From positions 806,001-870,000 of the forward strand of contig NZ_JACHMM010000001.1 of the NCBI RefSeq assembly GCF_014204975.1: a DNA stretch of 64,000 bases, in the 5' to 3' direction. Below, in pieces: positions 7,054 to 56,304 of this stretch. The DNA comes from Jiangella mangrovi. Lineage in GTDB: Bacteria > Actinomycetota > Actinomycetes > Jiangellales > Jiangellaceae. Position numbers and translations under genes: made by a program. How positions within the stretch are numbered: the stretch's first letter is position 1; every line of letters starts with the position of its first letter. The notes under the pieces were generated by a model that saw only the letters and a program-made list of their open reading frames with translations, was not told the origin of the DNA and searched no databases.

Positions 7054-8102
7054 CGATGAGCCTCCTTCGAGTGCGGCCCGCAACTGCGGCGGACCACGAG
7101 CTGGGTGGTCAGGACGTCGTGACGTGGTTCGGAACGGTCCCCGCTGATCCGGGCGTCGAGCATCTGCGCCGCCCTCGCCCCCATCTCGCGCATCGGCTGA
7201 CGGACCGTCGTCAGCCCCGCATAGCGCGCCGCCATGACGTCGTCCCACCCGGTGACGGCGACCTCCCCCGGTACCTCGATCCCCTCTTCGGCCAGCGCGA
7301 CCGTGAGGCCGAGCGCCAGCTCGTCGTTCGCGCAGACGACCACGTCCGGCAGGCCGTCGGCGATGAGCGCGGCCGCCACGCGGGCGCCGTCGTCCTCTTT
7401 GAAGCCGGCCGGGATGGCCCGTTCCGGCACGTCGACCCCGGCCTGCGCGAGCGCGCCGCGGAACCCGGCCCAGCGCTCGGCGACGTCGGTGGAGTCGACC
7501 GGGTCGCCGAGGAACGCCATGCGGCGGTGCCCGTCGGCCAGCAGGTGGTCGACGACGGAGGTCGCGGCGACGACGTTCTCGGTGCGGACGGAGTCGGCGC
7601 CCTCGATCTCGGTGCGGGCCATGAGCACGACGGGGACGCCGCGCTGCACGATCTCGGCGACGACGTCGTCGTGCACCGTCCGCCCGAACACGGCCAGCCC
7701 GTCGACCCGGCCGGCGAGGTCGAGCACCATGTCGCCGGCTGACTCGCGGTTGTGCGTGCTGAGGATGAGCACCGAGCGGCCGAGCGTGGCGGCGACCTCC
7801 TCGTAGCCCAGGACGACCTCGGCGTAGAACGGGCCGGACAGGTCGGGGAAGACGATGCCGTTGGCGGCGTGCCTGCGCTCGGCCAAGGAGCGGCCGAGCT
7901 GGCTGGGCGTGAACCGGAGCTCCTCGATGGCGGCGTCGACCCGCTCGCGGGTGGCCGGGTGGACGAGGTCGCTGCCGCGGAGCGCGCGCGAGACCGTCGC
8001 CACCGAGACGCCCGCGTGCCGCGCCACGTCGCGGATGGTCACGCTGGCGCGAGCGGACGTGCGGCGACGCTGTCCGGTGCTCTTCTGCTCCGCGCTGTCC
8101 AT
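7050..8102 (-). CDS. LacI-family transcriptional regulator
   Basis: 350-residue repressor. The N-terminal helix-turn-helix is VTIRDVARHAGVSVATVSRA (21-40) with the hinge helix near 60-72, followed by a periplasmic-binding-protein-like sugar-sensing domain. It is the first gene of the operon lacI > binding protein > two permeases > glycosidase, and ends within the start codon of the binding protein. Placing the repressor as leading cistron makes the circuit autoregulatory. ATG 8102 has AAAGGAG upstream. Likely operators lie just upstream (8123-8155), shared with the divergent GH15-like gene. Confidence 0.93.
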   Translation of the reverse strand: MDSAEQKSTGQRRRTSARASVTIRDVARHAGVSVATVSRALRGSDLVHPATRERVDAAIEELRFTPSQLGRSLAERRHAANGIVFPDLSGPFYAEVVLGYEEVAATLGRSVLILSTHNRESAGDMVLDLAGRVDGLAVFGRTVHDDVVAEIVQRGVPVVLMARTEIEGADSVRTENVVAATSVVDHLLADGHRRMAFLGDPVDSTDVAERWAGFRGALAQAGVDVPERAIPAGFKEDDGARVAAALIADGLPDVVVCANDELALGLTVALAEEGIEVPGEVAVTGWDDVMAARYAGLTTVRQPMREMGARAAQMLDARISGDRSEPRHDVLTTQLVVRRSCGPHSKEAHR

Positions 8103-8122
8103 GGTCTGGTCGCTCCTTTGGT

Positions 8123-8155
8123 ACCGGTTACATAAACCGGTTACATCGGCTACAT
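8123..8155. promoter_or_regulatory. LacI operator cluster: repeated ACCGGTTACAT
   Basis: ACCGGTTACAT occurs at 8123-8133 and 8136-8146, with a diverged copy ATCGGCTACAT at 8145-8155. Each of the first two contains a central CCGG-symmetric core (ACCGGT and AACCGGTT), as LacI-family sites normally do. They lie between lacI (start 8102, minus) and the GH15-like gene (start 8165, plus), so one cluster could repress both directions. Confidence 0.5.
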
Positions 8156-10369: not shown

Positions 10370-11527
10370 GTGGCGGAGGTGACGCAGCCTCCCGCGCAGC
10401 CGCCGGAGCGCGGTGCCCTGCGTGCGGCCATCGAAGGCCTCCTCCGCACCTGCGTCGACCTCGAGCGCCAGGCGGAGGGTGCGAGCGCCGACGCGGCGAA
10501 GCGGGTGCGCGGCATCGCCGAGACGCTGTCCGCCGTGCACGTCCCCGGGACCGTCCTCGACGTTCCCGCTCTCGTGCAGGAGATCAGCGGTGTCGGCCGG
10601 CAACTGGACGCGGACCTGAACGGGCAGCTCGCCGAGGCCCGGCGACCGCTGGTGACGGAGATCCACGCCCTGCTCGCCCTGCTCGCTCCCTGGCACGGGT
10701 TGACGGCGCCGCCGCCGCTGGTCCCGGCCGGCCCGCTCGCGCAGCTCCCCGACCACTTTCCGCCCGGCTTCGCGCACGACTACGTCGACGACCTGCTCGG
10801 CACCGTCGATACCAGCGTCACCCTGACCGCACAGACGGCCAACCAGGTTTCCGTGCCGTCAGAAGAACTCATCGATGCCGTGCCGGGATCGGTCGGTGGT
10901 CACCTACCGGACACCGACCGGCTGGAGGGCATCGCGATGCTCAAAGGCAGCGATTGTCACGCCGTGGAACGGCACGGCCCCCACATCCCGTTGCAGGCCC
11001 AGCTCGCACGCTTGCTCTGGCTGAAGGATCCATCGGGGCACGGGCCATGGCAGCTCCTGCCGGACGGTGGCGCTGAGTCCGACCACCGATGTGGACCCAT
11101 CGCGGGTGGATTCGCCTCCGCCGAGGCGATGGCCAAACCACTCGAGGCGATCCTTCGATGGGCGCGTGTCCACGCCGGTGGCTTGGACGAGCTGCTCACG
11201 AACAACACCAAGGCGAAGACCAAGCGCATCAGCATCCACGTGAGCGCGACATCGGCCGGCCTCGCAGCCGGCGACACGCACGGATACCGAGGCACGGCGA
11301 CATCGAGCCGTGCCATGGCGGACGATTGGCTGGATGCGCGCACGTACGCGATGGCCCACGGTGCACCACCCGTGTACGCGGTGCCCTACGACCCCATCGC
11401 CGAAGGCGATGATCCGGGAGTATTTCTCCAGTTCAAGCGACTCGGGACGACGAGCTGGGCGCTCGTGACGTGCTACCCGGTCGGCGAGCGAAACCCGAAC
11501 TGCAAACGCATGGAGGACCTCACATGA
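10370..11527 (+). CDS. Predicted polymorphic toxin with C-terminal RNase A-like (CdiA-CT) domain
   Basis: 385 residues. Residues 1-110 are mostly helical, followed by a linker. From about 185 the sequence fits the bacterial RNase A-like toxin domain of contact-dependent inhibition proteins: a helix with DCHAVERHG (His197, His202) and QLARLLWL (Arg214), a middle GGFASAEAMAKPLEAIL segment, and a terminal strand WALVTCYP (Thr367, Tyr369). The His/Arg/Thr/Tyr set matches the catalytic residues described for that family. No signal peptide is visible. GTG 10370 is preferred because AAGGTGG lies 8 bp upstream; GTG 10358 and 10379 are alternatives. It overlaps the next gene by ATGA. Family match is by eye. 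Confidence 0.62.
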   Translation: MAEVTQPPAQPPERGALRAAIEGLLRTCVDLERQAEGASADAAKRVRGIAETLSAVHVPGTVLDVPALVQEISGVGRQLDADLNGQLAEARRPLVTEIHALLALLAPWHGLTAPPPLVPAGPLAQLPDHFPPGFAHDYVDDLLGTVDTSVTLTAQTANQVSVPSEELIDAVPGSVGGHLPDTDRLEGIAMLKGSDCHAVERHGPHIPLQAQLARLLWLKDPSGHGPWQLLPDGGAESDHRCGPIAGGFASAEAMAKPLEAILRWARVHAGGLDELLTNNTKAKTKRISIHVSATSAGLAAGDTHGYRGTATSSRAMADDWLDARTYAMAHGAPPVYAVPYDPIAEGDDPGVFLQFKRLGTTSWALVTCYPVGERNPNCKRMEDLT

Positions 11528-12072
11528 CCCCGCCGAGCGAGAACTTCAAGGAACACTTCGGCGGAGGATTCGGCCTGGCCGATGAGACGCCGGAGGCCTA
11601 CATCGAGGAGTGCGAAGAGGCCGCCGCCAGGTTGGAGGACGACGAGGACGGCTCGTTCCACGCCTTCCTTGACGAGTTCGCCCGCCACATCCGCGATTCG
11701 TCCTATCCGCCGCACCGCGTCGCCGACTCGCAATGGATCACCGACGAGTGGCTCCGCAACATCTGGTACGACGCGTTCGGTCCGGAACCATCGCCCGGCG
11801 ACCCGTACCCCGTGCCCGCGGAGGACTGGGGCCGTCGCCGTCGCACGCCCTACATGACGTACGCCGTCAACCGGCGGCCGGAACTCAGTTCGCCCGGTGT
11901 GCCGGACTGGCTAGAAGCCCGCGGCCTGACCTTCGATGATGCGAACGCCGGGATCGGTATCTCACTCAGCGGCCAGTTCGCGAGTGCACGACCGGCGCCG
12001 GAGGGGTGGCTGGAGCGGCTGCACGACCTCACCGCGCGCGGGCTGCGCGCCGAACAGCCGGGCGAGCGCTAG
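11524..12072 (+). CDS. Putative immunity protein for the RNase A-like toxin
   Basis: 182-residue soluble acidic protein with no recognised domain. Its ATG overlaps the toxin stop as ATGA, the typical arrangement for toxin-immunity pairs. The N-terminal third is rich in Glu/Asp (AYIEECEEAAARLEDDEDG), suitable for binding a basic nuclease surface. The middle contains IRDSSYPPHRVADSQWITDEW. A hairpin lies 38 bp after the stop. Base composition through this gene and the end of the toxin is visibly less GC-extreme than the flanks. The immunity role is inferred from position only. Confidence 0.5.
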   Translation: MTPPSENFKEHFGGGFGLADETPEAYIEECEEAAARLEDDEDGSFHAFLDEFARHIRDSSYPPHRVADSQWITDEWLRNIWYDAFGPEPSPGDPYPVPAEDWGRRRRTPYMTYAVNRRPELSSPGVPDWLEARGLTFDDANAGIGISLSGQFASARPAPEGWLERLHDLTARGLRAEQPGER

Positions 12073-12109
12073 TCGAGCCCGCGCTCCGGTCAGCAGAGTC
12101 CATCATCGA

Positions 12110-12153
12110 CGTGTAGACGCTGAGGCCAAGCTGTTGGCATCAGCGTCTACACG
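12110..12153. terminator. Long two-part hairpin after the toxin-immunity pair
   Basis: A perfect 14-bp stem (CGTGTAGACGCTGA at 12110-12123 with 12140-12153) encloses a second 5-bp stem GCCAA/TTGGC with a GCTG loop, separated by one G/A mismatch. It lies between convergent genes (stop at 12072 on plus; stop at 12193 on minus) and could terminate both. There is no U tract, so a Rho-independent role is uncertain; it may also be a mobile palindromic repeat. Confidence 0.55.
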
Positions 12154-12192
12154 TGCGACAAGTACTCTGCCGCCCCCGGCGAGCGCTAACGG

Positions 12193-14242: not shown

Positions 14243-17200
14243 CTATCCAGCCCTGCTTCCGGCCCGGTCGGGCTGGTGGGCGATGACGTCGTCGATGACG
14301 GTCTTCGCCCAGGCCAGGAGCTCGACGCCGCGCAGCTGCGGCCCGCCGATCTGGGTCGGCCGCGGCCGGGGCACCAGCATGGTGCCGACGGCGTCCTTGA
14401 CCAGCGACTTCGGGTACAGCCGGCCGAGGCGCACCCGCTGCCAGTCGGCCAGCTCGACGTGCGCGAACCGGATGTAGGTGCCCTGGACGGTGACCTCGGA
14501 GAGTCCCGCCCGCCGCGCGTGCGCCCGGAACCGGGCCACGGCCAGCAGGTTCTCGACCGGCTCCGGCGGCGGGCCGTAACGGTCGGCCAGCTCCTCGAGC
14601 ACGGCGTCGACGGCGGCGTCGTCGGCCGCCTCGGACAGCCGCCGGTACGCCTCGAGCCGCAGCCGCTCGCTGGCGACGTAGTCGTGCGGGATGTGCGCGT
14701 CGACCGGCAGCTCGATGCGGACCTCGGGCATCGCCTCGGCGCCGTCGCCGCGGTAGTCCGAGACCGCCTCGCCGACCAGCCGCACGTAGAGGTCGAACCC
14801 GACGTCGGCGATGTGGCCGGACTGCTCGCCGCCCAGCAGGTTGCCGGCGCCGCGGATCTCGAGGTCCTTCATGGCGACCTGCATGCCGGCGCCGAGGTCG
14901 GAGTGCTGCGCGATGGTGGCCAGCCGCTCGTGCGCCTCTTCGGTCAGCGGCGTCTCACGCGGGTAGAAGAAGTACGCGTAGGCCCGCTCGCGGCCACGCC
15001 CGACGCGCCCGCGCAGCTGGTGCAGCTGCGAGAGGCCGAGCCGCTCGGACCGGTCGACGACGAGGGTGTTGGCGTTGGAGATGTCGAGGCCGGTCTCGAC
15101 GATGGTCGTACACACCAGGACGTCGATCTCGCGGTGCCAGAACGCGTTGATGACCTGCTCGAGCGCGTGCTCGCCCATCTGGCCGTGCGCCGTCGCCACC
15201 CGCGCCTCGGGCACCAGCTCGCGCAGCCGGGCCGCGACCTTCTCGATGGTCTCGACCCGGTTGTGCACGAAGAACGCCTGGCCGTCGCGCATCAGCTCGC
15301 GCCGGATGGCCGCGCCGACCTGCTTCTCGTCGTAGCCGCCGACGTAGGTGAGGACGGGGTGGCGCTCTTCGGGCGGGGTGGTGATGACGCTCATGTCGCG
15401 GATGCCGGTGATGGACATCTCGAGCGTGCGCGGGATCGGCGTCGCCGACATGGTCAGCACGTCGACGTTGGCGCGCAGGTGCTTCAGCTTCTCCTTGTGC
15501 TCGACGCCGAAGCGCTGCTCCTCGTCGACGATGAGCAGGCCGAGGTCCTTGAACCGGACGTCGCCGGTGATGAGCCGGTGGGTGCCGATGACGACGTCGA
15601 CGCTGCCGTCGAGCAGCCCCTCGATGGTCTCGGCGGCCTCGCTGTCGGACTGGAACCGCGACAGCGCCCGGATGGTGACGGGGAACGGCGCGAACCGCTC
15701 GGAGAACGTGGCGAGATGCTGCCCGACCAGCAGCGTGGTGGGCACGAGCACGCCGACCTGCTTGCCGTCCTGCACCGCCTTGAACGCGGCCCGGACGGCG
15801 ATCTCGGTCTTGCCGTAGCCGACGTCGCCGGCGATGACGCGGTCCATGGGGATCTCGCGCTCCATGTCGGCCTTGACCTCGTCGATGGTCGACAGCTGGT
15901 CGGCGGTCTCGACGTAGGGGAAGGCGTCCTCGAGCTCGCGCTGCCAGGGGGTGTCCTGGCCGAACGCGTGCCCCGGCGCGGCCTGGCGCGCGGCGTACAG
16001 CTTGATCAGCTCGGCCGCGATCTCCTTGACCGCCTTGCGGGCGCGGCCCTTGCGCTTGGCCCAGTCGCTGCCGCCGATGCGGTCGAGGTGCGGGGCGTCG
16101 CCGCCGACGTACTTGGTGACCTGCTCGAGCTGGTCGGTCGGGACGTACAGGCGGTCGGCCGGCTGGCCGCGCTTGGACGCGGCGTACTCGACCACGAGGT
16201 ACTCGCGGGTGGCGCCCTGCACCGTCCGGCTGGTCATCTCGACGTACCGCCCCACGCCGTGCTGGTCGTGGACGACGTAGTCGCCTGGCTTGAGCTGGAG
16301 CGGGTCGACCTGGTTGCGCCGGCGGCTGGGCATGCGGGTGGTGCCCTTGGTGGACACCCGCTGGCCGGTGAGGTCGTCTTCAGTGAGGACGGCGAGCGCT
16401 GCGGCCTGGGCGACGAAGCCGTGCTTCAGCCCGCCCGTGGTGACGAGAACGACGCCCGGCTCCGGCGCGGTGTCGACGTGCTCGGTGTAGCGGGCGGGCA
16501 CCTCGGACTCGCCCAGGACCTCGACGACGCGCTCGGCGGTGCCGTGGCCGCCGGTGACGAGGACGGCGCGGCCGCCGGTGGCCAGCCAGCCGGAGAGGTC
16601 GGCGACGGCGCGCTTGGTGTCGCCGCGGTAGGTCTCGGCCGGGCGGACGTCGAGCTCGCGGGTGTCGACGGCGCCGGCGGTGACCATGTCCTCGCCGAGG
16701 TCGACGGCGTACAGGTCGGCGTCGAGGTCCTCCTTCTCGGCACGCGCCGGACGCGCGCCGTCGCCGTCGGGACCGCTGACGCCGTCGGCCGAGCCCAGCC
16801 CGAACGAGCTGAGGCTCCACCACGGCAGCCCCTGGCGGATCGCCTGCGCCCGGACGTCGCCGAGCGTGTGGTACGCCGCCGCGCCGAGGTCGATGGGTGC
16901 CTTGCCGCCGCCGGCCGCCGCCGCCCACGACGCGTCGAGGAACTCCTGGCTGGTGGCGACCATGTCGTGCGCCCGGGTTCGGACCCGCTCGGGGTCGCAG
17001 ACCAGCACGTGGGTGCCGGCCGGCAGCAGGTCGACGAGCATCTCCATGCGGTCGACCAGCACGGGCGCCAGCGACTCCATGCCCTCGACGGCGATGCCGG
17101 CGGCGATCTTCTCGAGCATCTCGCCCAGCTCGGGGTGGGCGTCGGCGAGCGCGGCCGCACGCCGGCGGACGTCGTCGGTCAGCAGCAGCTCGCGGCACGG

Positions 17201-17914
17201 CGGCGCCCACAGGCCGTGCTCGGCGACGTCGGTCGAGCGCTGGTCGGCGACGGTGAAGTACCGCACCTCCTCGACGGTGTCGCCCCAGAAGTCGACCCGC
17301 AGCGGGTGCTCCTCGGTGGGCGGGAAGACGTCGACGATGCCGCCGCGGACGGCGAACTCGCCCCGTCGTTCCACGAGGTCGACGCGCACGTACGCGGCCG
17401 CGGCCAACTGCTCCACGACGGAGTCGAGGCTGACGTCGTCGCCGGGGCGCAGTGCGACGGGACGGAGGTCGGCCAGGCCGGCGACCTGCGGCTGCAGCAC
17501 GCTGCGCACCGGCGCGACGACCACCTTGACCGGCCCGCCGGACTCGTCATCGGGGTGGACCAGGCGGCGCAGCACCGCCAGCCGGCGCCCGACGGTGTCG
17601 CTGCGCGGCGAGAGGCGCTCGTGCGGCAGCGTCTCCCAGGCCGGGTACTCGACGACGGACTCCGGCGGCAGCAGGCAGCGCAGCTCGGTGGCGAGGTCCT
17701 CGGCCTCGCGCCCGGTGGCGGTGACGGCGAGCACCGTCCGGCCCGCACCCACGCCGTCGGCCGCGATGGCGCCGGCCACGAACGGGCGCAGCGCCGGCGG
17801 CGCGGTGAGGTCGAGGGCGGTGACCGCGCCCGTGCGCGCGTCGGCGACGGCCGAGCGCAGGGTGGGGTCGCCGTCGTCGCCGAGCAGGGCGGACAGCAGG
17901 CCGCTGAGACTCAT
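14243..17914 (-). CDS. mfd: Transcription-repair coupling factor Mfd
   Basis: 1223-residue ATP-dependent translocase that removes RNA polymerase stalled at lesions and recruits UvrA. Seen: UvrB-homology region in the first 350 residues ([16 protein letters not shown] near 91-106), CarD-like RNAP-interacting domain [18 protein letters not shown] (541-558), Walker [10 protein letters not shown] (696-704), DEEQ box (797-800), helicase motif [12 protein letters not shown]-like [14 protein letters not shown], and the QLRGRVGR motif VI. ATG 17914 is the conserved start [11 protein letters not shown]. First gene of the mfd-SurA-mazG group. Confidence 0.97.
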
Positions 17915-18013
17915 GTGGACCTTCCGGGCACGCAGACATGCCCCCCACACCTGCTGGGGTGGGGGGTACTACGAGCTTACGACGTCTCGCCGACAGAGTC
18001 GCGACCCTCGACT

Positions 18014-42992: not shown

Positions 42993-43014
42993 CCCGGCCC
43001 GTCCTCGCACAAGG

Positions 43015-43048
43015 GGACGCCCCCGGCGCCGCGGTGCCGGGGGCGTCC
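43015..43048. terminator. Strong intrinsic terminator between convergent genes
   Basis: GGACGCCCCCGGC (43015-43027) pairs perfectly with GCCGGGGGCGTCC (43036-43048) over 13 bp with an 8-nt loop, followed by TTCTGT. It lies between the M14 gene stop (42992) and the LPXTG gene stop (43064), so it can serve both strands. Confidence 0.75.
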
Positions 43049-43063
43049 TTCTGTGTGGTGCGA

Positions 43064-44173
43064 TCAGCTGGTCAGGCGCTGACGGTAGCGAGCGACCAGA
43101 GCCGCTCCCCCGCCCAGCGCCAGCAGGGCCGCGCCGGCCCAGAGCAGCGAGCCCCCGGCACCGGTGTCGGGCAGCTCGTCACCGTCGCCGTCACCGGTGC
43201 CGTCGTCGCCACCGGAGCCGTCATCGCCACCGGAGCCGTCATCGTCGCCCGACGGGGACGGGCTCGGGCTCGCACTCGGGCTCGGGCTCGGGCTGGGCGT
43301 GCCGCCGTCGTCGGCCCCGGTCTCGGTGCCGCCGTCGTCAGTGCCGGACTCGCCGCCGTCGTCGGTGCCGTCGTCGTCGCCGGAGCAGCCGGTCGGCTCC
43401 TCCGCCGTCAGGACCCAGCCGTGGACCAGGACGGTGTCGTCGGCCGCCAGCCAGGCCATGACCTCGTGGTCGCCGGGCGCCGCGTCGTACTCGCCGGCGT
43501 CCACGGGGGCGTCTTCGAGGGTGTACGCGTAGCCGGCCGCTGCCGGGATCGTGAGCGTGCCGACCGGATCCTCGCACGTCGGCTGCACGAGGGTGGGCTC
43601 GACCGGGGGGACGAAGATCACCGGCTCGCCACCGACCCTGAGGTCGCTGAAGCGGACGGTGCCCTCGACGCCGCCGTTGCTGGTGTCGTAGACCAGCCCC
43701 AGGTGGCCGATGGTGCCGTCGGCCGCAGCCGTGAGCGAGAGCGTGCCGGAGGTGCTGCCGTCGTCCGGCGCAGCGTCATGTGCCAGGGGCGCCGCACCGA
43801 CCACGGCGAAGAGCCGGACCGCGCCCGCGGCCGGGTCGGCGCCACCGACCAGCTCGTACTGCACGCTGATCTCGGCGCCGGCGGTGACGGCCGCGCCGAG
43901 GTTCGTCGTCTCGGCGGACGTGCCGAGCGAGGCGCCTTCGACGTCAGCGGACCAGATCAGGTCCACCGAAGTCGCCCCGGTGAACTCGGAGAGTTCGGAG
44001 TCGTGTTCCAGCCCGGGCGCCCAGACGGTGCCCGGGCCGGTGTCGAGTGTCTTCCATGGAGCGGTCGCGAGGATGAAGCCCTCGCCCGCCGTGTCCTCAG
44101 CGAATGCCGCCGGTGCCAGCCCCCCGATGGAGAGGGCCACCGCACCGACCGCCGCACCGATGAGCTTGCGCAC
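43064..44173 (-). CDS. LPXTG-anchored cell-surface protein
   Basis: 369 residues from GTG 44173 with GAAAGGA upstream. Signal peptide VRKLIGAAVGAVALSIGGL ends near AFA-ED. The body (30-250) contains beta-sandwich-like segments; a long Asp/Gly/Ser/Thr/Pro-rich spacer (about 255-332) with repeated DDG and SPSPS follows, then the sorting signal LPDTG (334-338), a membrane helix and a basic tail RYRQRLTS. A sortase would link it to peptidoglycan; none is in the window. Function of the exposed domain unknown. Confidence 0.8.
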   Translation of the reverse strand: MRKLIGAAVGAVALSIGGLAPAAFAEDTAGEGFILATAPWKTLDTGPGTVWAPGLEHDSELSEFTGATSVDLIWSADVEGASLGTSAETTNLGAAVTAGAEISVQYELVGGADPAAGAVRLFAVVGAAPLAHDAAPDDGSTSGTLSLTAAADGTIGHLGLVYDTSNGGVEGTVRFSDLRVGGEPVIFVPPVEPTLVQPTCEDPVGTLTIPAAAGYAYTLEDAPVDAGEYDAAPGDHEVMAWLAADDTVLVHGWVLTAEEPTGCSGDDDGTDDGGESGTDDGGTETGADDGGTPSPSPSPSASPSPSPSGDDDGSGGDDGSGGDDGTGDGDGDELPDTGAGGSLLWAGAALLALGGGAALVARYRQRLTS

Positions 44174-44370
44174 GGTCGATCCTTTCGTTGGCCGGACGGC
44201 GGCAGCTGCCTGCCGCCGACGCGCGGGACCGTAGCGCACATTCGGCCAATGTATGGTGAAAGTCACATGAGAGAACGATCATGAGGGGTTTCACCTTCGG
44301 GACCCAGGGTGCATACCGGCTCGTCGTGCGGTCGTAGGATTCAGGACGTCGTTGACCGGATCGGGCACTG

Positions 44371-44922
44371 GTGGGGGCCAGCATCGACGTTCTCTTCGTC
44401 TGCACGGCCGGCCGCTGCCGCTCACCCATCGCCGCCGCCATGCTCGACGCCTACGCGCCGCGGGCCGGGTCGCCGCTCGCCGGCCGGTCCGGCGCGCTGG
44501 TGGGCGCGCACGGGTCGGTGCCGCCGGTGGGCATCACCGTCATGCGCGAGCGCGGCCTCGAGCTCGGCGGGCACCGCAGCCTGCCCGTCACCGCCGCGTC
44601 GGTCGCGTCGGCGGCGCTCGTGCTGGGCATGGAGCGCGAGCACGTCCGCGCCGTCGTCGGCGAGCACCCGGACGCCTGGGTGAAGACGTTCACGCTCAAG
44701 GACTTCGTGCGCCGCGTCGAGAAGGCCGCGCCCCGCGGCCGGCACCAGCGCTTCACCGACTGGCTCGAGCAGATCGGCGAGGGCCGCACCCGCGACGACG
44801 TCGCCGGCGAGAGCCCCGAGGACGACATCGTCGACCCCTACGGCCAGCGGGCCTCGGTCTGGCGGGAGGTCGTGGACGAGATGGACGACCTGGTCCGCCG
44901 ACTCATCCCGAACGTCGGCTGA
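44371..44922 (+). CDS. Low-molecular-weight protein tyrosine phosphatase family protein
   Basis: 183 residues from GTG 44371. The phosphate loop CTAGRCRS (Cys11 to Arg17) fits CX5R, and the general acid is in DDIVDPYG. The family dephosphorylates phosphotyrosine, in envelope loci usually to regulate polysaccharide polymerase/co-polymerase proteins. It converges with the HprK-like gene by 20 bp. No tyrosine kinase is visible in the window, although two Wzz-like proteins are; a kinase or phosphatase partner may be elsewhere. Confidence 0.9.
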   Translation: MGASIDVLFVCTAGRCRSPIAAAMLDAYAPRAGSPLAGRSGALVGAHGSVPPVGITVMRERGLELGGHRSLPVTAASVASAALVLGMEREHVRAVVGEHPDAWVKTFTLKDFVRRVEKAAPRGRHQRFTDWLEQIGEGRTRDDVAGESPEDDIVDPYGQRASVWREVVDEMDDLVRRLIPNVG

Positions 44923-45589
44923 GCAGGTCGCGCACCGCGTCGGCGCCCTCGTCGAGGCCGGACACCTCGAGCCGCCAGCCGCGCGCGCCCCTGGCGAGCG
45001 CCGCCGCGGCCGCCCAGGCGCCGGCCCCCAGGCGGTAGTGGTTGAACCCGGCCCTCAGCACCTGGGCCAGCACCTCTCCGGCCGGCCGCGGCACCAGCCG
45101 GGTCTGCGGGGCGCCGCGGCGCAGCTCGACGACGTGGGCCACCGGGAGCGTGGCCGCGACGGCGGTGGCGCCGAGGCGGTCGCAGGGCACCGCCGCCTTC
45201 GTGGCGTGCGCGGCGGTGGCCAGGGCGGTGCCGGGTCCGACGGGGCCGAGGCCCAGCGCGCCCTGTGCCCAGGCGGTCAGCATGAGCGGCCTGGCCCACC
45301 CGGTGACGCACCCGGTGTCCGTCTCGACGGCGACCAGCTCGTCGCTCAGGTAGTCGAACCCGCGGCGCAGGCACGCGGCGACCATGGTGCTCTTCCCCGT
45401 GCCGGACTCGCCGGGGAACAGGACCGCCCGCCCGTCGCGGGCGACCGCGCCGGCGTGCAGCAGCAGCCGCGGCGACCGCTCGATGGCCACCAGGGCGGCC
45501 GCGGCGTAGAGCTCCTCGGCCGGGGCGCCGTCGGGCGCGGACACCTCGACGGGAACGCCGACGACGTCCAGCACGAGCCGCTCGGTCAT
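44903..45589 (-). CDS. HPr kinase-like (HprK-related) P-loop protein
   Basis: 228 residues from ATG 45589. The core resembles the C-terminal half of HPr kinase/phosphorylase: RSPRLLLHAGAVARDGRAVLFPGESGTGKSTMVAACLRRGFDYLSDELVAV includes the His (His45), the Walker A GESGTGKST (60-68) and the downstream SDE acidic residues. The HPr-recognition N-terminal domain of true HprK is absent. It overlaps the PqqD-like gene by ATGA. Such HprK-like/PqqD/nucleotidyltransferase groups occur in envelope glycan and RiPP loci, with unknown substrate; a lasso-peptide kinase is the alternative. Confidence 0.75.
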   Translation of the reverse strand: MTERLVLDVVGVPVEVSAPDGAPAEELYAAAALVAIERSPRLLLHAGAVARDGRAVLFPGESGTGKSTMVAACLRRGFDYLSDELVAVETDTGCVTGWARPLMLTAWAQGALGLGPVGPGTALATAAHATKAAVPCDRLGATAVAATLPVAHVVELRRGAPQTRLVPRPAGEVLAQVLRAGFNHYRLGAGAWAAAAALARGARGWRLEVSGLDEGADAVRDLLSRRSG

Positions 45590-45873
45590 CCCGGCGACGG
45601 GAGGTCGACGACGTGGTGGGCGGCGAGCTGCGCGAGGGCGGCCTCGACGCCGCCGCGGACGTCGTCGGGACCGGCGCCGTAGGAGCTGGCGAGGAGCCGG
45701 ACGATGTCGTCGGCGGTGCGCTCGCCGTCGACCAGGCGCCAGACGTCGCCGGCGGTCTCGTTGAGGACGAGGGCCGTCTGCGTGGGCTCGTGGAAGAGGG
45801 TGACCTCGCCGTCGATGTCCATCTCGCGGACCGCGGGCGCGGGGACCGGCGCAGATCGAGTCACGGGCGCCAT
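45586..45873 (-). CDS. PqqD-like peptide-recognition protein
   Basis: 95 residues. The small winged-helix PqqD/RRE-like domain is seen in VREMDIDGEVTLFHEPTQTALVLNETAGDVWRLVDGERTADDIVRLLA, with the family pattern LNxTAxxVW. Members bind a leader peptide and present it to a modifying enzyme. It is the first gene of the pair with the HprK-like protein, divergent from the small Tat/LPxTG protein at 45985, whose N-terminus is a plausible peptide for recognition. No radical-SAM, transglutaminase or cyclase is nearby. Confidence 0.75.
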   Translation of the reverse strand: MAPVTRSAPVPAPAVREMDIDGEVTLFHEPTQTALVLNETAGDVWRLVDGERTADDIVRLLASSYGAGPDDVRGGVEAALAQLAAHHVVDLPSPG

Positions 45874-45984
45874 CGTAACGACCTCGTGACCGCTCTCTGT
45901 ACCTTCGACAAGACAGATCGGTCATTTGGCCGGTATCATCCTGGCCAGTCGCACGGGGGGCGTGCGCACCGAGAGGCGTTGCTG

Positions 45985-46446
45985 ATGCAGCAGAACCAGT
46001 CCACCGGCCTGAACCGCCGTCAGATGCTGGCCAAGGGGGCCGCGCTCGGCGGTGTCGTCTGGGCCGCTCCGACCGTCACCGCCATCACGTTGTCCCAGGC
46101 CAACGCGGCCGTGCCCAGCGGTCCGCCGCCGGAGCCGTCCGAGCCGCCGAAGCCGCCGGAGACCCCGCCGGAGAAGCCTCCGACGCAGCCTCCCACCACG
46201 CCGCCCGACGACCACACGCCGGAGCCGAGCCCGCCCGCCGAGACGCCGGCTCCCAAGCCGCCGCCCGGCGACGACGAGGACGTTCCCGTGGGTGGCCCGG
46301 AGCTGCCGAACACCGGCCCGGGCGACGTCGCCCGCACGGTGGCGGTCGGCGGCCTGCTCGCGGCGGCCGGCGCCTCAGCCGTCTACGTCGCGTCCAAGGA
46401 CGGCCAGCAGTCCGCCGACGAGCCCGGGCAGGGGACCCCGGCCTAG
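45985..46446 (+). CDS. Small Tat-exported, proline-rich LPxTG surface protein
   Basis: 153 residues. The N-terminus has a twin-arginine signal (LNRRQMLAKG, Arg11-Arg12) with hydrophobic stretch GGVVWAAPTVTAITL to about residue 40. Residues 43-105 are nearly all Pro/Glu/Ser/Thr, lacking folded structure. The sorting signal LPNTG (107-111), a membrane helix (114-137) and a short tail follow. Tat export of an unfolded, sortase-anchored peptide is odd. It sits between the divergent PqqD/HprK pair and the glycan genes, so it may be their modified or glycosylated target; this is inference. Confidence 0.75.
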   Translation: MQQNQSTGLNRRQMLAKGAALGGVVWAAPTVTAITLSQANAAVPSGPPPEPSEPPKPPETPPEKPPTQPPTTPPDDHTPEPSPPAETPAPKPPPGDDEDVPVGGPELPNTGPGDVARTVAVGGLLAAAGASAVYVASKDGQQSADEPGQGTPA

Positions 46447-46480
46447 CTCGGCGCACTGAGACCAAAGGCCTGGGGGGGTC

Positions 46481-47731
46481 ATGGGGGTGTTCGGTGGGGT
46501 CGCTCGACGCCGCGCAGGGGCGTCGACGCGGGTACTGATCGTCGTTCAGAACATTCCGCTGCGCTACGACCGGCGGGTCCGCAACGAGTGCAGGGCACTG
46601 CTCGACGCCGGCTACGGCGTCACCGTCATCTGCCCGAAGGACACCGCCGACGAGCCTGACGAGCACGTGCTCGACGGCGTGGTCGTGCGGTCGTACCAGC
46701 CGCCGCCGGCCACGTCGGGGCTGGTCAGCTACCTGGTCGAGTTCATCGTCTGCTGGCTGCGCACGGCCCGGCTGTCGCTGCGCGCCGCCCGCGCCGAGGG
46801 CTTCGACGTCCTGCAGGCGTGCAACCCGCCGGACACCTACTGGCTGCTCGGGCTGCTGTGGAAGGTGCGCGGCAAGCGGTTCGTGTACGACCAGCACGAC
46901 CTGTGCCCCGAGGTCTACGAGGCGCGCTTCGGCAAGCGCGGCCTGCTCCACCGAGCGCTGTTGCTGCTCGAGCGGGCCACGTACGCCACCGCCGACCGCG
47001 TGGTGAGCCCGAACCCGTCGTACCAGGAGATCGCCCTCACCCGCGGCAAGCTGCCCATCGGGCGCACCGCCGTCGTCATGAGCTCGCCCGACCCGGAGCT
47101 GATGAAGCGCGGCGAGGCGCATCCGGAACTGCGCGGCGGCCGCGACTTCCTGGTCTGCTACATCGGCATCATGGGGCCGCAGGACGGCGTCGACCGCCTG
47201 CTCGACGCCGCCGCCCACTACGTGCACGTGCTGGGCCGGCGCGACACCCGGTTCGCGCTGCTGGGCTACGGCGACAGCCTCGACGACCTGCGCGCGCAGT
47301 CCACCCGTCTGGGGCTGGACGAGTGGGTGACGTTCACCGGGCGTGTCGACCAGGTCGAGCTGGGCCGCTGGCTGTCGACGGCGGACATCGGCGTCACGCC
47401 GGACCCGCCCTGCGAGTTCAACCACCGCTCGACCATGAACAAGACGCTCGAGTACATGGCGCACGCCGTGCCCGTGGTGGCGACCGACCTGCGCGAGACC
47501 ATGCGCTGCGCCGGGCCGGCCGCCGAGTACGTGCCCGACGGCGACCCGGTCGTCATGGCCAAGACCATCGCCGCGCTGCTCGACGACCCGCGCCGCCGCG
47601 CGCACATGGGTGCCGCCGGGCGCCAGCGCATCGAGACCGAGCTGGCCTGGCAGCTGCAGGCCACCGCCTACGTCGACCTCTACCACGGACTGCTGAACGC
47701 GAACGGCACCACCAACGGGGGGAACCAGTGA
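46481..47731 (+). CDS. Glycosyltransferase family 4 protein
   Basis: 416 residues with a GT-B fold. The N-terminal domain opens STRVLIVVQNIPLRYDRRVRNE, typical of surface-glycan GT4 enzymes; VYDQHDLCPEVYEARFG follows. The nucleotide-sugar site in the C-terminal domain includes YIGIMGPQDGVDRLLDA and FALLGYGDSLDDL, then VTPDPPCEFNHRSTMNKTLEYMAHAVPVVATD containing the EX7E-like region. Probably transfers a sugar in the surface-glycan pathway. The stop overlaps the cytidylyltransferase start by GTGA. Confidence 0.9.
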   Translation: MGVFGGVARRRAGASTRVLIVVQNIPLRYDRRVRNECRALLDAGYGVTVICPKDTADEPDEHVLDGVVVRSYQPPPATSGLVSYLVEFIVCWLRTARLSLRAARAEGFDVLQACNPPDTYWLLGLLWKVRGKRFVYDQHDLCPEVYEARFGKRGLLHRALLLLERATYATADRVVSPNPSYQEIALTRGKLPIGRTAVVMSSPDPELMKRGEAHPELRGGRDFLVCYIGIMGPQDGVDRLLDAAAHYVHVLGRRDTRFALLGYGDSLDDLRAQSTRLGLDEWVTFTGRVDQVELGRWLSTADIGVTPDPPCEFNHRSTMNKTLEYMAHAVPVVATDLRETMRCAGPAAEYVPDGDPVVMAKTIAALLDDPRRRAHMGAAGRQRIETELAWQLQATAYVDLYHGLLNANGTTNGGNQ

Positions 47732-51961: not shown

Positions 51962-53112
51962 GCGGGCTGACGTCCTGCCTGGCCTGCGGTGGCGAGCGCC
52001 TGAAGGGCGTCGCCGACCTCGGCGCCTCCCCGGTGCTCACGGGCGCGCTCTTCGACGACCGCGAGCGCGCCCGCGGCGCCGTGCACGGACGGCTCGACCT
52101 CGCCGCCTGCCTCGACTGCGGCCACGTCCAGAACGTGGCGTTCGACCCGGAGCTGGTCGAGTACGACGTCAGCTACGACAACTCGCTGCACTTCTCCGGC
52201 ACGTTCCAGGCCTATGCCGACGAGCTGGTCGAGCGGCTGGTGCGCCAGTACGACGTCCGCGGCACCCACGTGGTCGAGATCGGCTCGGGCAAGGGCGACT
52301 TCCTCGCCGCGCTCGCGGCCGCCGGCGGCAACACCGGGACCGGTTACGACCCGACGGTGGAGCCGCAGACCCGGATCGAAGGCGTGCGCCTAGTGCAGGA
52401 CTACTTCCGCCCCGGCGACCAGGTCGAGCCGTACGGCCTGCTGGCCTGCCGGCACGTGCTGGAGCACCTGGACGACCCGGCCGCGCTGCTGGCCTCGCTG
52501 GTGCCGGACGCGCCCGCGGGCGCGCTGTACTACGTCGAGGTGCCGTCGGCGGAGTTCAACTTCGGCCCCGACGGGCTCTGGGACTGCATCTACCCGCACG
52601 TCTCCTACTTCTCGGCCGAGTCGCTGGCGGCGCTGCTGCTGCGCTCCGGCTTCGAGATCGTCTCGCTGGAGCGTTCCTTCCACGGCCAGTTCCTGTCCGC
52701 AGAGGTGCGCGTCGGCGACGGCGGCAGCGGTGCGGCCGGCTTCGGCAACCCGAGCGGCCACCTGGCCGTCGTCGGCGAGTTCGGCCGCCGCCACCACGAG
52801 GCGGTCGAGCGCTGGCGCGCCGACGTGGCCGCCGCGGGCGAGCGCGGGCAGACCGTCGTCGTGTGGGGCGCCGGGTCCAAGGGGGTCAACTTCCTCAACG
52901 CCGTCGACCCCGAGGGCGCCCTGGCCGCCGTCGACATCAACCCCCGCAAGCACGGGAGGTACCTGCCCGGCGGCGGGCACCGCGTCGTCGCTCCGGAGTC
53001 GCTGCGCGACCTCGACGTGTCGACGGTCGCGGTGACCAACCCGGTCTACCGCGACGAGATCGCGCGCTCGCTGGCCGAGCTGGGTGTGCCGGCCGCCGTC
53101 GTCACGGTGTGA
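51958..53112 (+). CDS. NDP-sugar C-methyltransferase-like protein 3, altered active site
   Basis: 384 residues from GTG 51958. The same architecture is seen: zinc cysteines CLACG and CLDCG, SAM motif VVEIGSGKGDFL, and C-terminal WGAGSKGVNFLNAV. In place of Tyr-x-Glu-His the catalytic region reads CIYPHVSYFS: Glu is Pro and the first Tyr is Ile, with only His kept. The enzyme may have changed chemistry or be non-catalytic. Its 3' end overlaps the convergent nucleotidyltransferase gene by 11 bp. Confidence 0.87.
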   Translation: MSGLTSCLACGGERLKGVADLGASPVLTGALFDDRERARGAVHGRLDLAACLDCGHVQNVAFDPELVEYDVSYDNSLHFSGTFQAYADELVERLVRQYDVRGTHVVEIGSGKGDFLAALAAAGGNTGTGYDPTVEPQTRIEGVRLVQDYFRPGDQVEPYGLLACRHVLEHLDDPAALLASLVPDAPAGALYYVEVPSAEFNFGPDGLWDCIYPHVSYFSAESLAALLLRSGFEIVSLERSFHGQFLSAEVRVGDGGSGAAGFGNPSGHLAVVGEFGRRHHEAVERWRADVAAAGERGQTVVVWGAGSKGVNFLNAVDPEGALAAVDINPRKHGRYLPGGGHRVVAPESLRDLDVSTVAVTNPVYRDEIARSLAELGVPAAVVTV

Positions 53113-54232
53113 CGCGGCCGGCCTCGGTCTCGACGCCGGCGAGGTAGACGTCGAGGTCGGCGCGCGTGGCGGTGTCGGTGGGCCCGGGCGGCCGCTGCTC
53201 GGGCCCGACGCGGTCGACCACGCCGTGGCCGAACCGGCTGACCAGCTCGCGCAGTGACGCGCCGCCCGTGCGGCGGGCCGAGCGGGCCACGATGCGTGCC
53301 AGCGTGGCCTCGCGGGACAACGCCGGGACGGGCGAGAGCCGGTCGGTGGCGCGCAGCACCAGCCGGTAGGGCGCCGACGAGAGCAGCTCGGCCTCGGCCT
53401 CGCGCGGGACCGGCGTGCCCAGCAGCCGCCGCGCCCGGCCGAGCACGACGGCCAGCGCCGGCCCGGCACCCCAGTCGCGGGCCCGCTCGACGACGTCGTC
53501 CCAGCGCTGCACCCGCCGGGCGAGCGCATCGACGTCGACGAGCAGCAGCATCCGGTCGGCGCCGGTCAGGGTGGCGTGCAGGCAGGCGTGCACCAGGGAG
53601 TCGACGGGGTCGAGGGTCCAGGCCACCCCGAGCCCGACCGGCACCTGGACGCGCCGGGACAGCAGCTCGCGGGTGCCGATGGAGAACTCGACCCGCTCGG
53701 TCTTCATGTTGAGCATGGCCCAGTGCAGGTCGATGATCAGGCCGGCGGGCGTGCGCACGTGCATCTCGCCGGGCGTGGCGCGGTAGCGCAGCGCCTCGGG
53801 CGGGTCGACCACCTGCCAGCCGGCATCGAGCAGCCGGTCGACCCCGCGGCGCAGGTCGGCTGGGTCGAGCAGGATGTCGAGGTCCTGGTAGGTGCGGATG
53901 CCCGGCACCGGGTGCGCCGTCTCGGACAGCACCGGCCCCTTGAACGCGACCCACGAGAGATCGTCGAACAGCTCGCCGAGGGCGCCGAGCGTCGCCACCG
54001 CCCGCAGGTGGTGGGCCATGGCCGCGTTGCGGTCGGGGCGCAGCGCCTCGGCCAACGGCAGGCCGGCCCGGCGCAGGACCACGTGCGCGAGCGGCGCCAC
54101 GCGGTGCCGGCGGACCGCGGCGACGAACCCGGCCTCGGCCTCGGGCGACGCGCCGACCCGCGGCGTCTCGCTCCGGGAGACGGCGAGCACGGCGGCGGCC
54201 GCGCCGCGCGCACTACTCCCCACCGGCCACAC
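53102..54232 (-). CDS. Uncharacterised nucleotidyltransferase-family protein (NTP_transf_5-like)
   Basis: 376 residues from GTG 54232. The motif VAFKGPVLSE followed by IRTYQDLDILLDPADLRRGVDRLLDAGW is the nucleotidyltransferase-fold core of NTP_transf_5-type proteins, with the Asp-x-Asp pair, and DLHWAMLNM follows. Family members occur in exopolysaccharide and lasso-peptide clusters together with PqqD-like and HprK-like proteins, as here (44.9-45.9 kb). The substrate is unknown. It converges with the third methyltransferase and is upstream of a strong terminator. Confidence 0.8.
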   Translation of the reverse strand: MWPVGSSARGAAAAVLAVSRSETPRVGASPEAEAGFVAAVRRHRVAPLAHVVLRRAGLPLAEALRPDRNAAMAHHLRAVATLGALGELFDDLSWVAFKGPVLSETAHPVPGIRTYQDLDILLDPADLRRGVDRLLDAGWQVVDPPEALRYRATPGEMHVRTPAGLIIDLHWAMLNMKTERVEFSIGTRELLSRRVQVPVGLGVAWTLDPVDSLVHACLHATLTGADRMLLLVDVDALARRVQRWDDVVERARDWGAGPALAVVLGRARRLLGTPVPREAEAELLSSAPYRLVLRATDRLSPVPALSREATLARIVARSARRTGGASLRELVSRFGHGVVDRVGPEQRPPGPTDTATRADLDVYLAGVETEAGRVTP

Positions 54233-54291: not shown

Positions 54292-56304
54292 CTACAGCGG
54301 TTCGCCGGTCTCGTGCCAGACGTTCCCGGACAGCGTCACACCGACGATGTTCGTGAGCGGGCCGTAGAAGCCGGACTTGTCGAAGATGGCCGTGCTGAAG
54401 CGGTTGTTGACGATGCGGACGTTGGTCCAGTTCTCGGAGCCGCCGCCCTCGTAGGCGCCGCCGTAGACCGCGTACCCGCCGCCGGAGACGATGTTGTCCT
54501 CGATCAGCAGGTTGGAGCCGTGCGACGTGCCGATCATGATGGCGGCGTTGCCGACCTCGGCGTCCATCTCGAGCACGTTGTGCCGGATGGTGATGTTGCT
54601 GCCGCCGGTCGACTGGATGGCGTCCTGGTGCGCACCCTGGTCGGCGTACTCACCGTGGTCGTGGATCCAGCTGTCCTCGATGAGAACGTCGCCGTTGGCC
54701 CGCGGCCCGTCGCCGAAGCCGTAGATGTTGGCCCGTCGCAGCGTGTACCGGGCATAGCCGATGGCCTCGATGCCGTCGGGGTTGCCGCGCCCGTCGAGCT
54801 CGACGTCCTCGATGACCAGCCCGTGGTTCTCGGGGTTGAAGAAGATCGCCATGCCCCGCGGCTGACGGACGCGCACGTTGCTGATGGTCACGTTGTCGGC
54901 GTTGACGACGATGGACCCGGTGATGTCGAGATCCTTCAGTACGGCGCCGTCCTCGTTGACCGTGACGGATCCCGAGGGCTTCAGCGTGCTGCCGGGCTTG
55001 ATGCCGGTGTTGGAGGCGTTGGGGTAGTCGCCGTTGGACGGCCCGTCGTCCTCCGGCGGCGCCGGCGGCTCCTCGGTCTCGGTGGGCTCCGGGTCCGGCG
55101 TCTCGGTCGGCTCCGGGTCCGGCGTCTCGGTGGGCGTCGGAGTAGGAGTCGGCGTGGGGGTCGGGGTGGGCGTCGGAGTCGGTGTCGGCTCCTCCGGGTC
55201 CGGGTCGGATCCCGTGACGCGGATGACCTCGATGGCCGAGATCATCGGGTCCTCGACGACGGCGTCGAAGCCGACGTCGAGTGTGCCGTCCTCGACGTCG
55301 ACCGTGAACGAGCGGGTGTAGGCCCGGCCGGTGCCGGCCTCGGCCTGCACGTCGAGGTCGGACAGCAGGGTGTCGCCCTCGGCGCTGACGTCGAACACGC
55401 GCTTGCCCGGCGCCGTGAAGATGGTCTCGGCGAAGTGCAGCACCAGGTTGTAGGTGCCGTTCTCGGGCACCGGAAGCGCGTAGCCCGACATGCCCCAGCG
55501 GTGCCGGCCGTAGAGGCGGTCGGCGTCGGTGCCGGCGACGTGCTCGGAGACCTGCCCGCTGGTGTGGCCGCCGTCGAAGTACCGGTCGGACGACCACTTG
55601 CTGCCGTCGGGCGCGGTGTAGCCGCTGCCGGCCGCGGAGATGCGGTAGACGACGTCGCCGTTGGGCGTGGGCGTGCCGGGACTGGCGTCGCCGGTGCAGC
55701 TGGACACGCGGTCGACGCTGATGGCGGAGATCATGGGGTCTTCGACGATCTTCGTGAAGCCGATGTCGAGCAGGCCGTCGCTGACCTCGAGCACGCGGTC
55801 GAGCTCGAGCGGGCGCATGGGGCCGACGGCGTCGACGACGTCGAGCTCGCGGGCCAGCGGCTTCCCCTCGAGGGAGACGCCGAACACCCGCTGCCCCGGC
55901 TCGTCGAAGATGACCTCGGCGAAGTGCAGCTCGACGCGGTAGCGCGCGGGGCAGGGCACCTTCACCTCGTAGTCGGACATGCCCCAGCGGTGCGAGGAGT
56001 AGAGGAGGCGGTCCGCGGTGTCGCGGACCGGGACGACCCCGCCCAGGTGGGTGCTGCCACCGACGTACCCGGCGTCCGGGGACCACGTCGCGCCCGAGGA
56101 GTCGACCCACGGTGTCGCCGCGGTGGCGCGGATGCGCGCCACCGGCTCGGCGGAGAAGGTGTCGTCGGGAGAGGGCGCGGCCGAGCCGATGATGGTGGCC
56201 GACGCCAGAAGTACGGTGGACAGGAGGACGGTTCGAACCGATCGCGCGGAGTACCGCTTCTCGGAGGCACCATTCCGCGCCTTGTATCGGCCGTTCGCAC
56301 TCAT
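54292..56304 (-). CDS. Secreted protein with two malectin domains and a right-handed beta-helix
   Basis: 670 residues. Signal/anchor segment TVLLSTVLLASATIIGSA at about 25-42. Two malectin-like carbohydrate-binding domains (about 52-200 and 218-363) share the motifs RLLYSSHRWGM and DRLYGRHRWGM, YRVELHFAE and YNLVLHFAE, EDPMISAI in both. A Pro-Thr repeat linker (368-420) leads to a parallel beta-helix (425-670) with repeated VTISNVRVR, LVIEDVELDG and ITIRHNVLEMD coils typical of pectate-lyase-like proteins. Probably binds or cleaves surface or plant polysaccharide; catalytic residues cannot be assigned. Confidence 0.85.
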   Translation of the reverse strand: MSANGRYKARNGASEKRYSARSVRTVLLSTVLLASATIIGSAAPSPDDTFSAEPVARIRATAATPWVDSSGATWSPDAGYVGGSTHLGGVVPVRDTADRLLYSSHRWGMSDYEVKVPCPARYRVELHFAEVIFDEPGQRVFGVSLEGKPLARELDVVDAVGPMRPLELDRVLEVSDGLLDIGFTKIVEDPMISAISVDRVSSCTGDASPGTPTPNGDVVYRISAAGSGYTAPDGSKWSSDRYFDGGHTSGQVSEHVAGTDADRLYGRHRWGMSGYALPVPENGTYNLVLHFAETIFTAPGKRVFDVSAEGDTLLSDLDVQAEAGTGRAYTRSFTVDVEDGTLDVGFDAVVEDPMISAIEVIRVTGSDPDPEEPTPTPTPTPTPTPTPTPTPTETPDPEPTETPDPEPTETEEPPAPPEDDGPSNGDYPNASNTGIKPGSTLKPSGSVTVNEDGAVLKDLDITGSIVVNADNVTISNVRVRQPRGMAIFFNPENHGLVIEDVELDGRGNPDGIEAIGYARYTLRRANIYGFGDGPRANGDVLIEDSWIHDHGEYADQGAHQDAIQSTGGSNITIRHNVLEMDAEVGNAAIMIGTSHGSNLLIEDNIVSGGGYAVYGGAYEGGGSENWTNVRIVNNRFSTAIFDKSGFYGPLTNIVGVTLSGNVWHETGEPL

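Follow-up and report, generated by a model that had tools for sequence, protein, structure and literature searches.

In Jiangella mangrovi, the genes for an HprK-like kinase and for a PqqD-type protein, a recognition element (RRE) of the kind found with ribosomally synthesized and post-translationally modified peptides (RiPPs), lie divergent from a gene encoding a small protein with a twin-arginine translocation (Tat) signal and an LPxTG-type sortase motif, and we lean towards reading this arrangement as a tailoring module in the manner of RiPP systems, with an exported surface protein as its target. The locus lies in a window of 64,000 bp, the whole stretch of DNA analysed, at positions 806001-870000 of a one-contig genome of 7.16 Mb. 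The divergent arrangement, with the ATGA overlap of the pair, had been described in an initial annotation and is confirmed by the open reading frame (ORF) calls and the sequence. The association of these genes is very likely real, and the Tat protein is probably the substrate. The features on which the argument turns are these:

44903-45589, minus strand: HprK-like kinase, 228 amino acids, P-loop GESGTGKS (ORF calls, profiles, AlphaFold model, tree)
45586-45873, minus strand: PqqD-type RRE, 95 amino acids (Pfam PqqD), with an ATGA overlap with the kinase start
45985-46446, plus strand: Tat-signal, proline-rich LPNTG protein, 153 amino acids, candidate substrate (ORF calls, sequence inspection)
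46060-46077, plus strand: WxxPx(V/I/L) motif, W26-A-A-P29-T-V31, inside the Tat signal, proposed docking site of the PqqD RRE
46117-46119, plus strand: Ser45, candidate phosphorylation site, 19 residues past W26 and just past the AxA site
46303-46317, plus strand: LPNTG sortase motif
53102-54232, minus strand: NTP_transf_5 nucleotidyltransferase (Pfam, 6.5e-38), for which a later step on the phosphorylated cargo is proposed

The family was sampled with 22 genomes, two of them 75% and 81% complete. The kinase is present at E <= 1e-5 in 13, and in every one of these pqqD has as its divergent neighbour a Tat gene whose signal is of the same kind. A profile of the whole Tat protein (A1) matches from its start in exactly the 13 kinase-bearing genomes, whereas in the other nine it matches from position 35 onward only (seven genomes) or not at all (two). 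NTP_transf_5 is encoded in the same 13 genomes and in none of the other nine. As the kinase, the Tat/LPxTG gene and NTP_transf_5 are conserved in the same 13 of the 22 genomes, the arrangement is more than a chance one. That the Tat/LPxTG gene accompanies the pair (13 of 13 with, 0 of 9 without) agrees with what had been expected from the window, and the association extends, with the cargo changed, to other families and classes; the link drawn earlier to NTP_transf_5 and polysaccharide genes holds as well, such genes being found also in loci of other classes. G002 has an additional, weak kinase match, whose locus (L036) is lasso-type by eye. PqqD, searched for in seven of the nine kinase-free genomes, is absent from six, and G020 has one in a lasso-like locus. 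A kinase search of genome contigs returned two loci, of which the close one, with 77% identity, is that of Jiangella anatolica.

The PqqD protein passes the cut-off of PF05402 (6.5e-14, 52.5 bits against 23.4), and its model (predicted local distance difference test, pLDDT, 83) has an RRE fold. The best matches in the PDB are TbiB1 with its leader (5v1u/5v1v), TfuB1 (6jx3) and PqqD (5sxy), the TbiB1 and TfuB1 entries being lasso RREs solved with bound leader peptides. The match of the kinase to Pfam Hpr_kinase_C is weak (0.0019, 18.2 bits against a cut-off of 33.3); its AlphaFold model has a pLDDT of 90 and Foldseek matches of the PEPCK and HprK/P fold. Invariant in all 13 family rows are the P-loop GESGTGKS, H45, D83-E84, K131 and N183-H184-Y185, the second Asp of L. 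casei HprK being replaced by Glu. The kinase therefore has the P-loop, catalytic-region His, acidic pair and HprK/PEPCK fold by which an HprK-like fold is recognized.

By inspection, twin arginines at residues 11-12, a hydrophobic stretch and an AxA site make up the Tat signal of the window protein, which is without a match to TIGR01409; among the distant Tat homologues scanned, that of L099 exceeds the TIGR01409 cut-off. The RR, Trp and Pro of the signal are invariant in the family alignment A1. The LPxTG tail scores 15.0 bits against an NCBIfam cut-off of 15.9, the motif itself being plain and conserved in relatives; it is present in 11 of the 13 family rows, one of the others being cut by a contig end and one altered C-terminally. 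The proposal, made from the window alone, that the Tat/LPxTG protein is the candidate substrate gains from its co-occurrence with the pair, but the conserved portion is the Tat signal and not the proline-rich LPxTG part, which varies or is replaced.

Within that signal, W26-A-A-P29-T-V31 fits the RRE docking consensus [Y/W]xxPx[L/V/I/A/F/Y] given in PMC13381572, on the Linear Polyphosphorylated Peptides (LPP; LppA/K/B/S/D/N) of Bacillota, where a Trp is also noted in paeninodin leaders. The J. mangrovi genome's own lasso-type leaders read Y-E-P-P-V-L and Y-E-A-P-T-L. Of 89 TIGR01409 matches in five genomes, 30 were given as loci; two of these are the module's own, six are unreadable as Tat signals, and none of the remaining 22 recognizable Tat signals has WxxPx. 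On this motif match, docking of the RRE on the Tat signal is slightly favoured. In the LPP system, according to the same paper, LppK phosphorylates Ser3 and the docking Tyr is at -16, 18 residues apart. In the window protein 19 residues separate W26 from Ser45, which is the only Ser invariant in all 13 family rows, and phosphorylation at this site can be put forward tentatively.

Among 393 genomes of the class, 11 further kinase loci were found at E <= 1.4e-18, in seven genomes of six families, and a Tat-signal gene lies within 5 kb in 10 of them. The cargo is varied: short proteins with sortase-like tails in L099 (above the LPXTG cut-off), L097 (LASTG) and L100 (LAYTG, both below the cut-offs), a Ser/Thr/Pro-rich protein in L101, and several larger unrelated domains elsewhere. 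PqqD and HprK are fused in L104, L105 and L250, and in G082 and G096 a single ORF fusing PqqD and kinase has a Tat gene on either side. Ten weaker kinase loci were inspected (L108-L116, L149), several of them lasso-type by eye, and a Tat gene is nearby in L113 only.

Some of these loci have further features. In L097, L099, L100, L101 and L147 the pair or its PqqD lies beside genes that are, by eye, rplY/pth- or mfd-like, which suggests that the chromosomal site is shared and old; the window, too, has an mfd-like gene, at 14243-17950. In L106 and L107 a WxxP Tat gene stands on each side of an HprK-like gene, L106 having a gene of the metallo-beta-lactamase fold as well, and one cargo there is partly similar to an S-layer glycoprotein family, far under the cut-off. 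A DUF6065 gene, a possible further partner, lies beside HprK-like kinases at L098:1602-2414 (8.2e-88) and L116:4536-5435 (by eye). Near the HprK-like gene of L113, two ORFs (6146-8123 and 11028-12161) appear to combine a weak PqqD-like domain with an internal Tat signal lacking WxxP, as if the motif were dispensable once the binder is fused in cis; the PqqD match is weak (Pfam 0.061 for one copy and none for the other; hhalign E 0.001, probability 21). A fusion of PqqD to NTP_transf_5 in L160 was considered and rejected: the NTP_transf_5 part is clear, but hhalign (E 0.26) does not support the N-terminal PqqD resemblance seen by eye.

A tree of 46 kinase rows, with locus labels assigned by eye, has a branch supported at 100/97 that parts 33 rows from 13. 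On the larger side are 28 Tat-locus, four other and one lasso-locus row; on the smaller, eight lasso-locus, four other and one Tat-locus row. The one lasso-locus row among the 33, L098_806, belongs to the separate PqqD-HprK pair of its contig, and the one Tat-locus row among the 13 comes from a second kinase of L254. This separation bears on the possibility that the window pair is the remnant of a classical RiPP or lasso cluster, with PqqD as B1 and HprK as the lasso kinase. The PqqD model is nearest to lasso B1 RREs, lasso kinases are HPr kinase homologues (PMC8498205), and a lasso-like cluster is present in the same genome (L004:7363-10924; G000:C1 897.4-900.9 kb), 27 kb past the window and ~46 kb from the pair. 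That cluster has two precursor-like ORFs (YEPPVL and YEAPTL leaders), a PqqD, a B2-like protein, an Asn-synthetase-like protein (by eye) and its own HprK-like kinase, which, however, lies across the 100/97 branch and aligns with the window kinase mainly over 50 residues around the P-loop, at 38%. Moreover, near the pair neither a B2 protease nor a C cyclase nor a lasso precursor was recognized among the window ORFs and the Pfam-scanned genes around it. Gene content and kinase tree thus largely exclude the lasso reading for the window pair, and we regard it as very improbable.

For the tailoring module, the Tat signal alone provided a search outside the family. Profile A4, with 43 positions and built from 22 rows of Tat signals, was searched in the class genomes and in 396 genomes of the phylum. 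The class run gave 29 matches at E <= 1e-12, 28 of them in loci with HprK and/or PqqD, most being training loci; the 29th belongs to a short G096 contig. Among the 28 is a new locus, that of G060, which has PqqD and a contig end where the kinase is expected. In the phylum run, 13 genomes of other classes (eight families), none in the class sample or the A4 training set, match at E <= 1e-5, the window's genome aside. Of the 18 stretches fetched from these other classes, 12 have HprK or PqqD at no more than 9 kb (ORF midpoint) and 11 at no more than 3 kb, HprK being present in nine of the 12. PqqD is encoded by all 13 A4-positive genomes against 96 of the 382 others (hypergeometric p 3e-8, kinship uncorrected). 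Three of the loci (L241, L248, L256) also have NTP_transf_5 and, by eye, polysaccharide-type genes. Reached via the class run, G372 has LMW-PTP (a low-molecular-weight protein tyrosine phosphatase), PqqD, NTP_transf_5, Tat, HprK-like and Tat genes in a row, the HprK-like gene matching the profile built here at 4.9e-14 and being without a match to Pfam Hpr_kinase; in G148 a Tat gene, a gene for an NTP_transf_5 protein and an HprK-like gene lie within 6 kb.

A number of observations count against a tailoring module directed at the Tat protein. Joint loss of a whole polysaccharide locus could be the source of the 13/9 pattern in the family. Among the 11 strong kinase loci of the class, that of G092 has no Tat gene and its genome no A4 match, the contig starting ~0.8 kb upstream. 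The Tat-locus kinases need seven label changes on the tree (shuffled mean 14.0) and so are clustered, not one clade. The resemblance to HPr-related systems given in the initial annotation is borne out but falls short of membership: the kinase matches NCBIfam TIGR04352 (HprK_rel_A) at E 2.9e-24, with 85.6 bits against a cut-off of 200, and the PqqD protein scores 23 bits for TIGR04353 against 35. At the position of LppB Phe74, a pocket residue of known RREs, the PqqDs of the Jiangella family have Ala (alignment read by eye) and many distant Tat-linked PqqDs have Ala, Leu, Val, Ile or Thr; Phe is found there in L151, L213 and one PqqD each of L214, L216, L241 and L248, and in four of five PqqDs from lasso-type loci, a residue pattern that is suggestive only. 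Ser is at the W+19 spacing in 10 of 17 hand-chosen class representatives and in just two of 13 other-class proteins, and because of these counts Ser45 is a phosphorylation candidate for the Jiangella family and nearer relatives only.

The remaining points concern the signal itself. The A4 rows were partly chosen by the WxxP pattern, so that conservation of W and P is partly by construction, although most of the distant Tat genes were first spotted without a WxxP filter; two proteins of L105 miss the strict pattern, one having Met at the last motif position. Neither gene is nearby in six of the 18 out-of-sample stretches, and in two of these six a contig end is ~2 kb away or less. Among the new class loci, three of 16 with WxxP and one of 14 without it have HprK or PqqD within 7 kb, not a significant difference (p 0.35). 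Of the 13 distant WxxP loci, seven come from one family, f26, in which G108 and G294 carry the pair elsewhere in the genome and in G157 it adjoins a further WxxP Tat gene; action in trans would fit this arrangement but is not evidenced by it. Three more are in G082 and G096, genomes with the module elsewhere, and three are Tat proteins with WAAP, which we take to resemble phospholipases, in genomes without a PqqD match. The WxxP motif alone is not sufficient, since WxxP Tat signals occur away from the pair and without PqqD. Such signals would be expected if WxxP marked a general actinobacterial Tat subtype, shared by ancestry and without an RRE role, with the adjacency arising from some other shared function. 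We consider this improbable, as WxxP is in none of the 22 other Tat signals sampled and 28 of the 29 class A4 matches are in HprK/PqqD loci, most, it is true, by construction.

It is also possible, and again unlikely, if less so, that the Tat/LPxTG protein partners the exopolysaccharide structurally and is just carried along with the locus, and that PqqD, HprK and NTP_transf_5 act on something else: a glycan intermediate, an HPr-like regulator or a small peptide that is not annotated. Both in the window and in loci of other classes the pair has polysaccharide genes around it, and gain or loss of a whole locus makes all its genes co-occur. Against this, the Tat genes that adjoin the kinase in other families encode unrelated cargo domains, and their surroundings differ, L097 and L099-L101 having the rplY/pth- or mfd-like genes alongside (with family-2 glycosyltransferase-like genes nearby in L099 and L100); the Tat-signal profile alone retrieves HprK/PqqD loci; and an ORF list that starts at 60 amino acids has no conspicuous small, precursor-like ORF next to the pair.

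If the Tat protein is the substrate, the Tat signal of the 153-residue LPxTG protein would double as a leader. The PqqD-type RRE would dock on W26-x-x-P29-x-V31, within the signal's hydrophobic part, and, in the style of a Tat proofreading chaperone, retain the precursor in the cytoplasm and hand it to the HprK-like kinase, which would phosphorylate a Ser or Thr close to the mature N-terminus, Ser45 being the best candidate. NTP_transf_5 might then move a sugar or nucleotide-borne group onto the phosphate. After release of the RRE, Tat, which is suited to cargo needing modification prior to export, would export the tagged protein, signal peptidase would cleave after AxA, sortase would fix the protein to the wall, and the tag may join or nucleate the exopolysaccharide of the locus; such tethering to the polysaccharide is doubtful. 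The NTP_transf_5 step is the least certain because LppN showed no effect in the heterologous host of LPP (PMC13381572). As a conjecture with rather long odds, the scheme could hold throughout the Actinomycetota, with a class of Tat signals serving as RiPP leader, an RRE that reads WxxPx(V/I/L) and gates export, an HprK-like kinase and NTP_transf_5 that build a phosphodiester-linked sugar and, with sortase, a covalent tether for capsule or exopolysaccharide.

Several known systems share parts of this module. The HPr-rel-A cassette (TIGR04352 kinase, TIGR04353 PqqD) is associated with NTP_transf_5, and the J. mangrovi locus has the same kinds of enzyme, the NTP_transf_5 partner included, in a surface-polysaccharide setting; it differs in that kinase and PqqD are below the curated cut-offs and in having a proposed substrate candidate. 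TorD, DmsD and NapD, examples of Tat proofreading chaperones, are cytoplasmic proteins that remain bound to a Tat signal while its cargo is not yet ready, whereas here a protein with an RRE fold would play such a role, for modification rather than a cofactor. According to PMC13381572, the LPP system likewise has a discrete RRE, an HprK-like kinase and an NTP transferase, a [Y/W]xxPx docking motif in the leader and a phosphorylated Ser 18 residues past the motif (19 here, for the candidate), and LPP expression rose along with an exopolysaccharide gene. The substrates proposed here are, in contrast, Tat-exported, partly sortase-tailed and varied in cargo, the leader would be the Tat signal, and the hosts are Actinomycetota; neither an SpI-like leader peptidase nor an MsbA-like exporter is among the Pfam-scanned genes beside the pair. 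According to PMC8498205, an HPr kinase homologue phosphorylates a Ser of the lasso peptides paeninodin and pseudomycoidin, and a nucleotidyltransferase puts a hexose on the phosphorylated peptide in pseudomycoidin. Kinase, nucleotidyltransferase and B1 RRE are thus common to both, but the present locus has no recognized lasso B2, C or precursor and its kinase lies across the strong branch. A literature search, with subscription journals mostly outside its range, found no paper naming substrates of the HprK-related kinase, PqqD and NTP_transf_5 of surface-polysaccharide loci and none joining PqqD with a Tat signal.

The divergent intergenic region and the flanks of the module contain the following features:

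45910-45939, plus strand: sigma-70-like promoter for the Tat/LPxTG gene, AAGACA-18-TATCAT, a consensus match only (50 shuffles of the 1.1 kb region average 0.0)
45949-45967, plus strand: inverted repeat CGCACG-GGGGG-CGTGCG, near-invariant in 12 aligned family loci, a possible operator
44371-44922, plus strand: low-molecular-weight protein-tyrosine-phosphatase-like protein (Pfam LMWPc 6.9e-17, above cut-off)
46481-47731, plus strand: group 1 glycosyltransferase, directly 3' of the Tat/LPxTG gene, opening a run of polysaccharide genes

The inverted repeat is placed just past the promoter-like -10, and the pattern CGCACRGGGGGCGTG is found exactly in no fetched locus of another family. It is more likely an operator than an RNA element, since an Rfam search of 43000-47000 gave no match and the repeat as RNA folds no better than shuffles (z 0.78). 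The phosphatase gene does converge with that of the kinase, as first described, overlapping it by 20 bp; its product is of the low-molecular-weight tyrosine phosphatase family, and the gene lies 0.9-2.0 kb from the kinase in just six of 12 relatives' stretches and was not found in the other six. A role as antagonist of the kinase is on these counts a weak idea only, and from its family the phosphatase is more likely a gene of the polysaccharide locus or its regulation. The Tat/LPxTG gene is followed by glycosyltransferase, epimerase and methyltransferase genes and then by NTP_transf_5, which a gene for a protein with malectin and beta-helix domains (54292-56304) adjoins. A second sortase-type protein, with an LPDTG tail and an acidic, proline-rich spacer, is encoded at 43064-44266, beside the phosphatase gene. 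A defence role was considered, and PADLOC gave no match for three proteins of the locus.

The analysis names a specific substrate candidate that is recognizable, in several classes of the phylum, by a 43-residue export signal, and it suggests that exported surface proteins are tagged inside the cell before export. If so, RiPP-style recognition would be widened from small peptides to exported surface proteins, the Tat signal would have a second recognition role, and Gram-positive bacteria might possess a route by which polysaccharide is attached to wall proteins.

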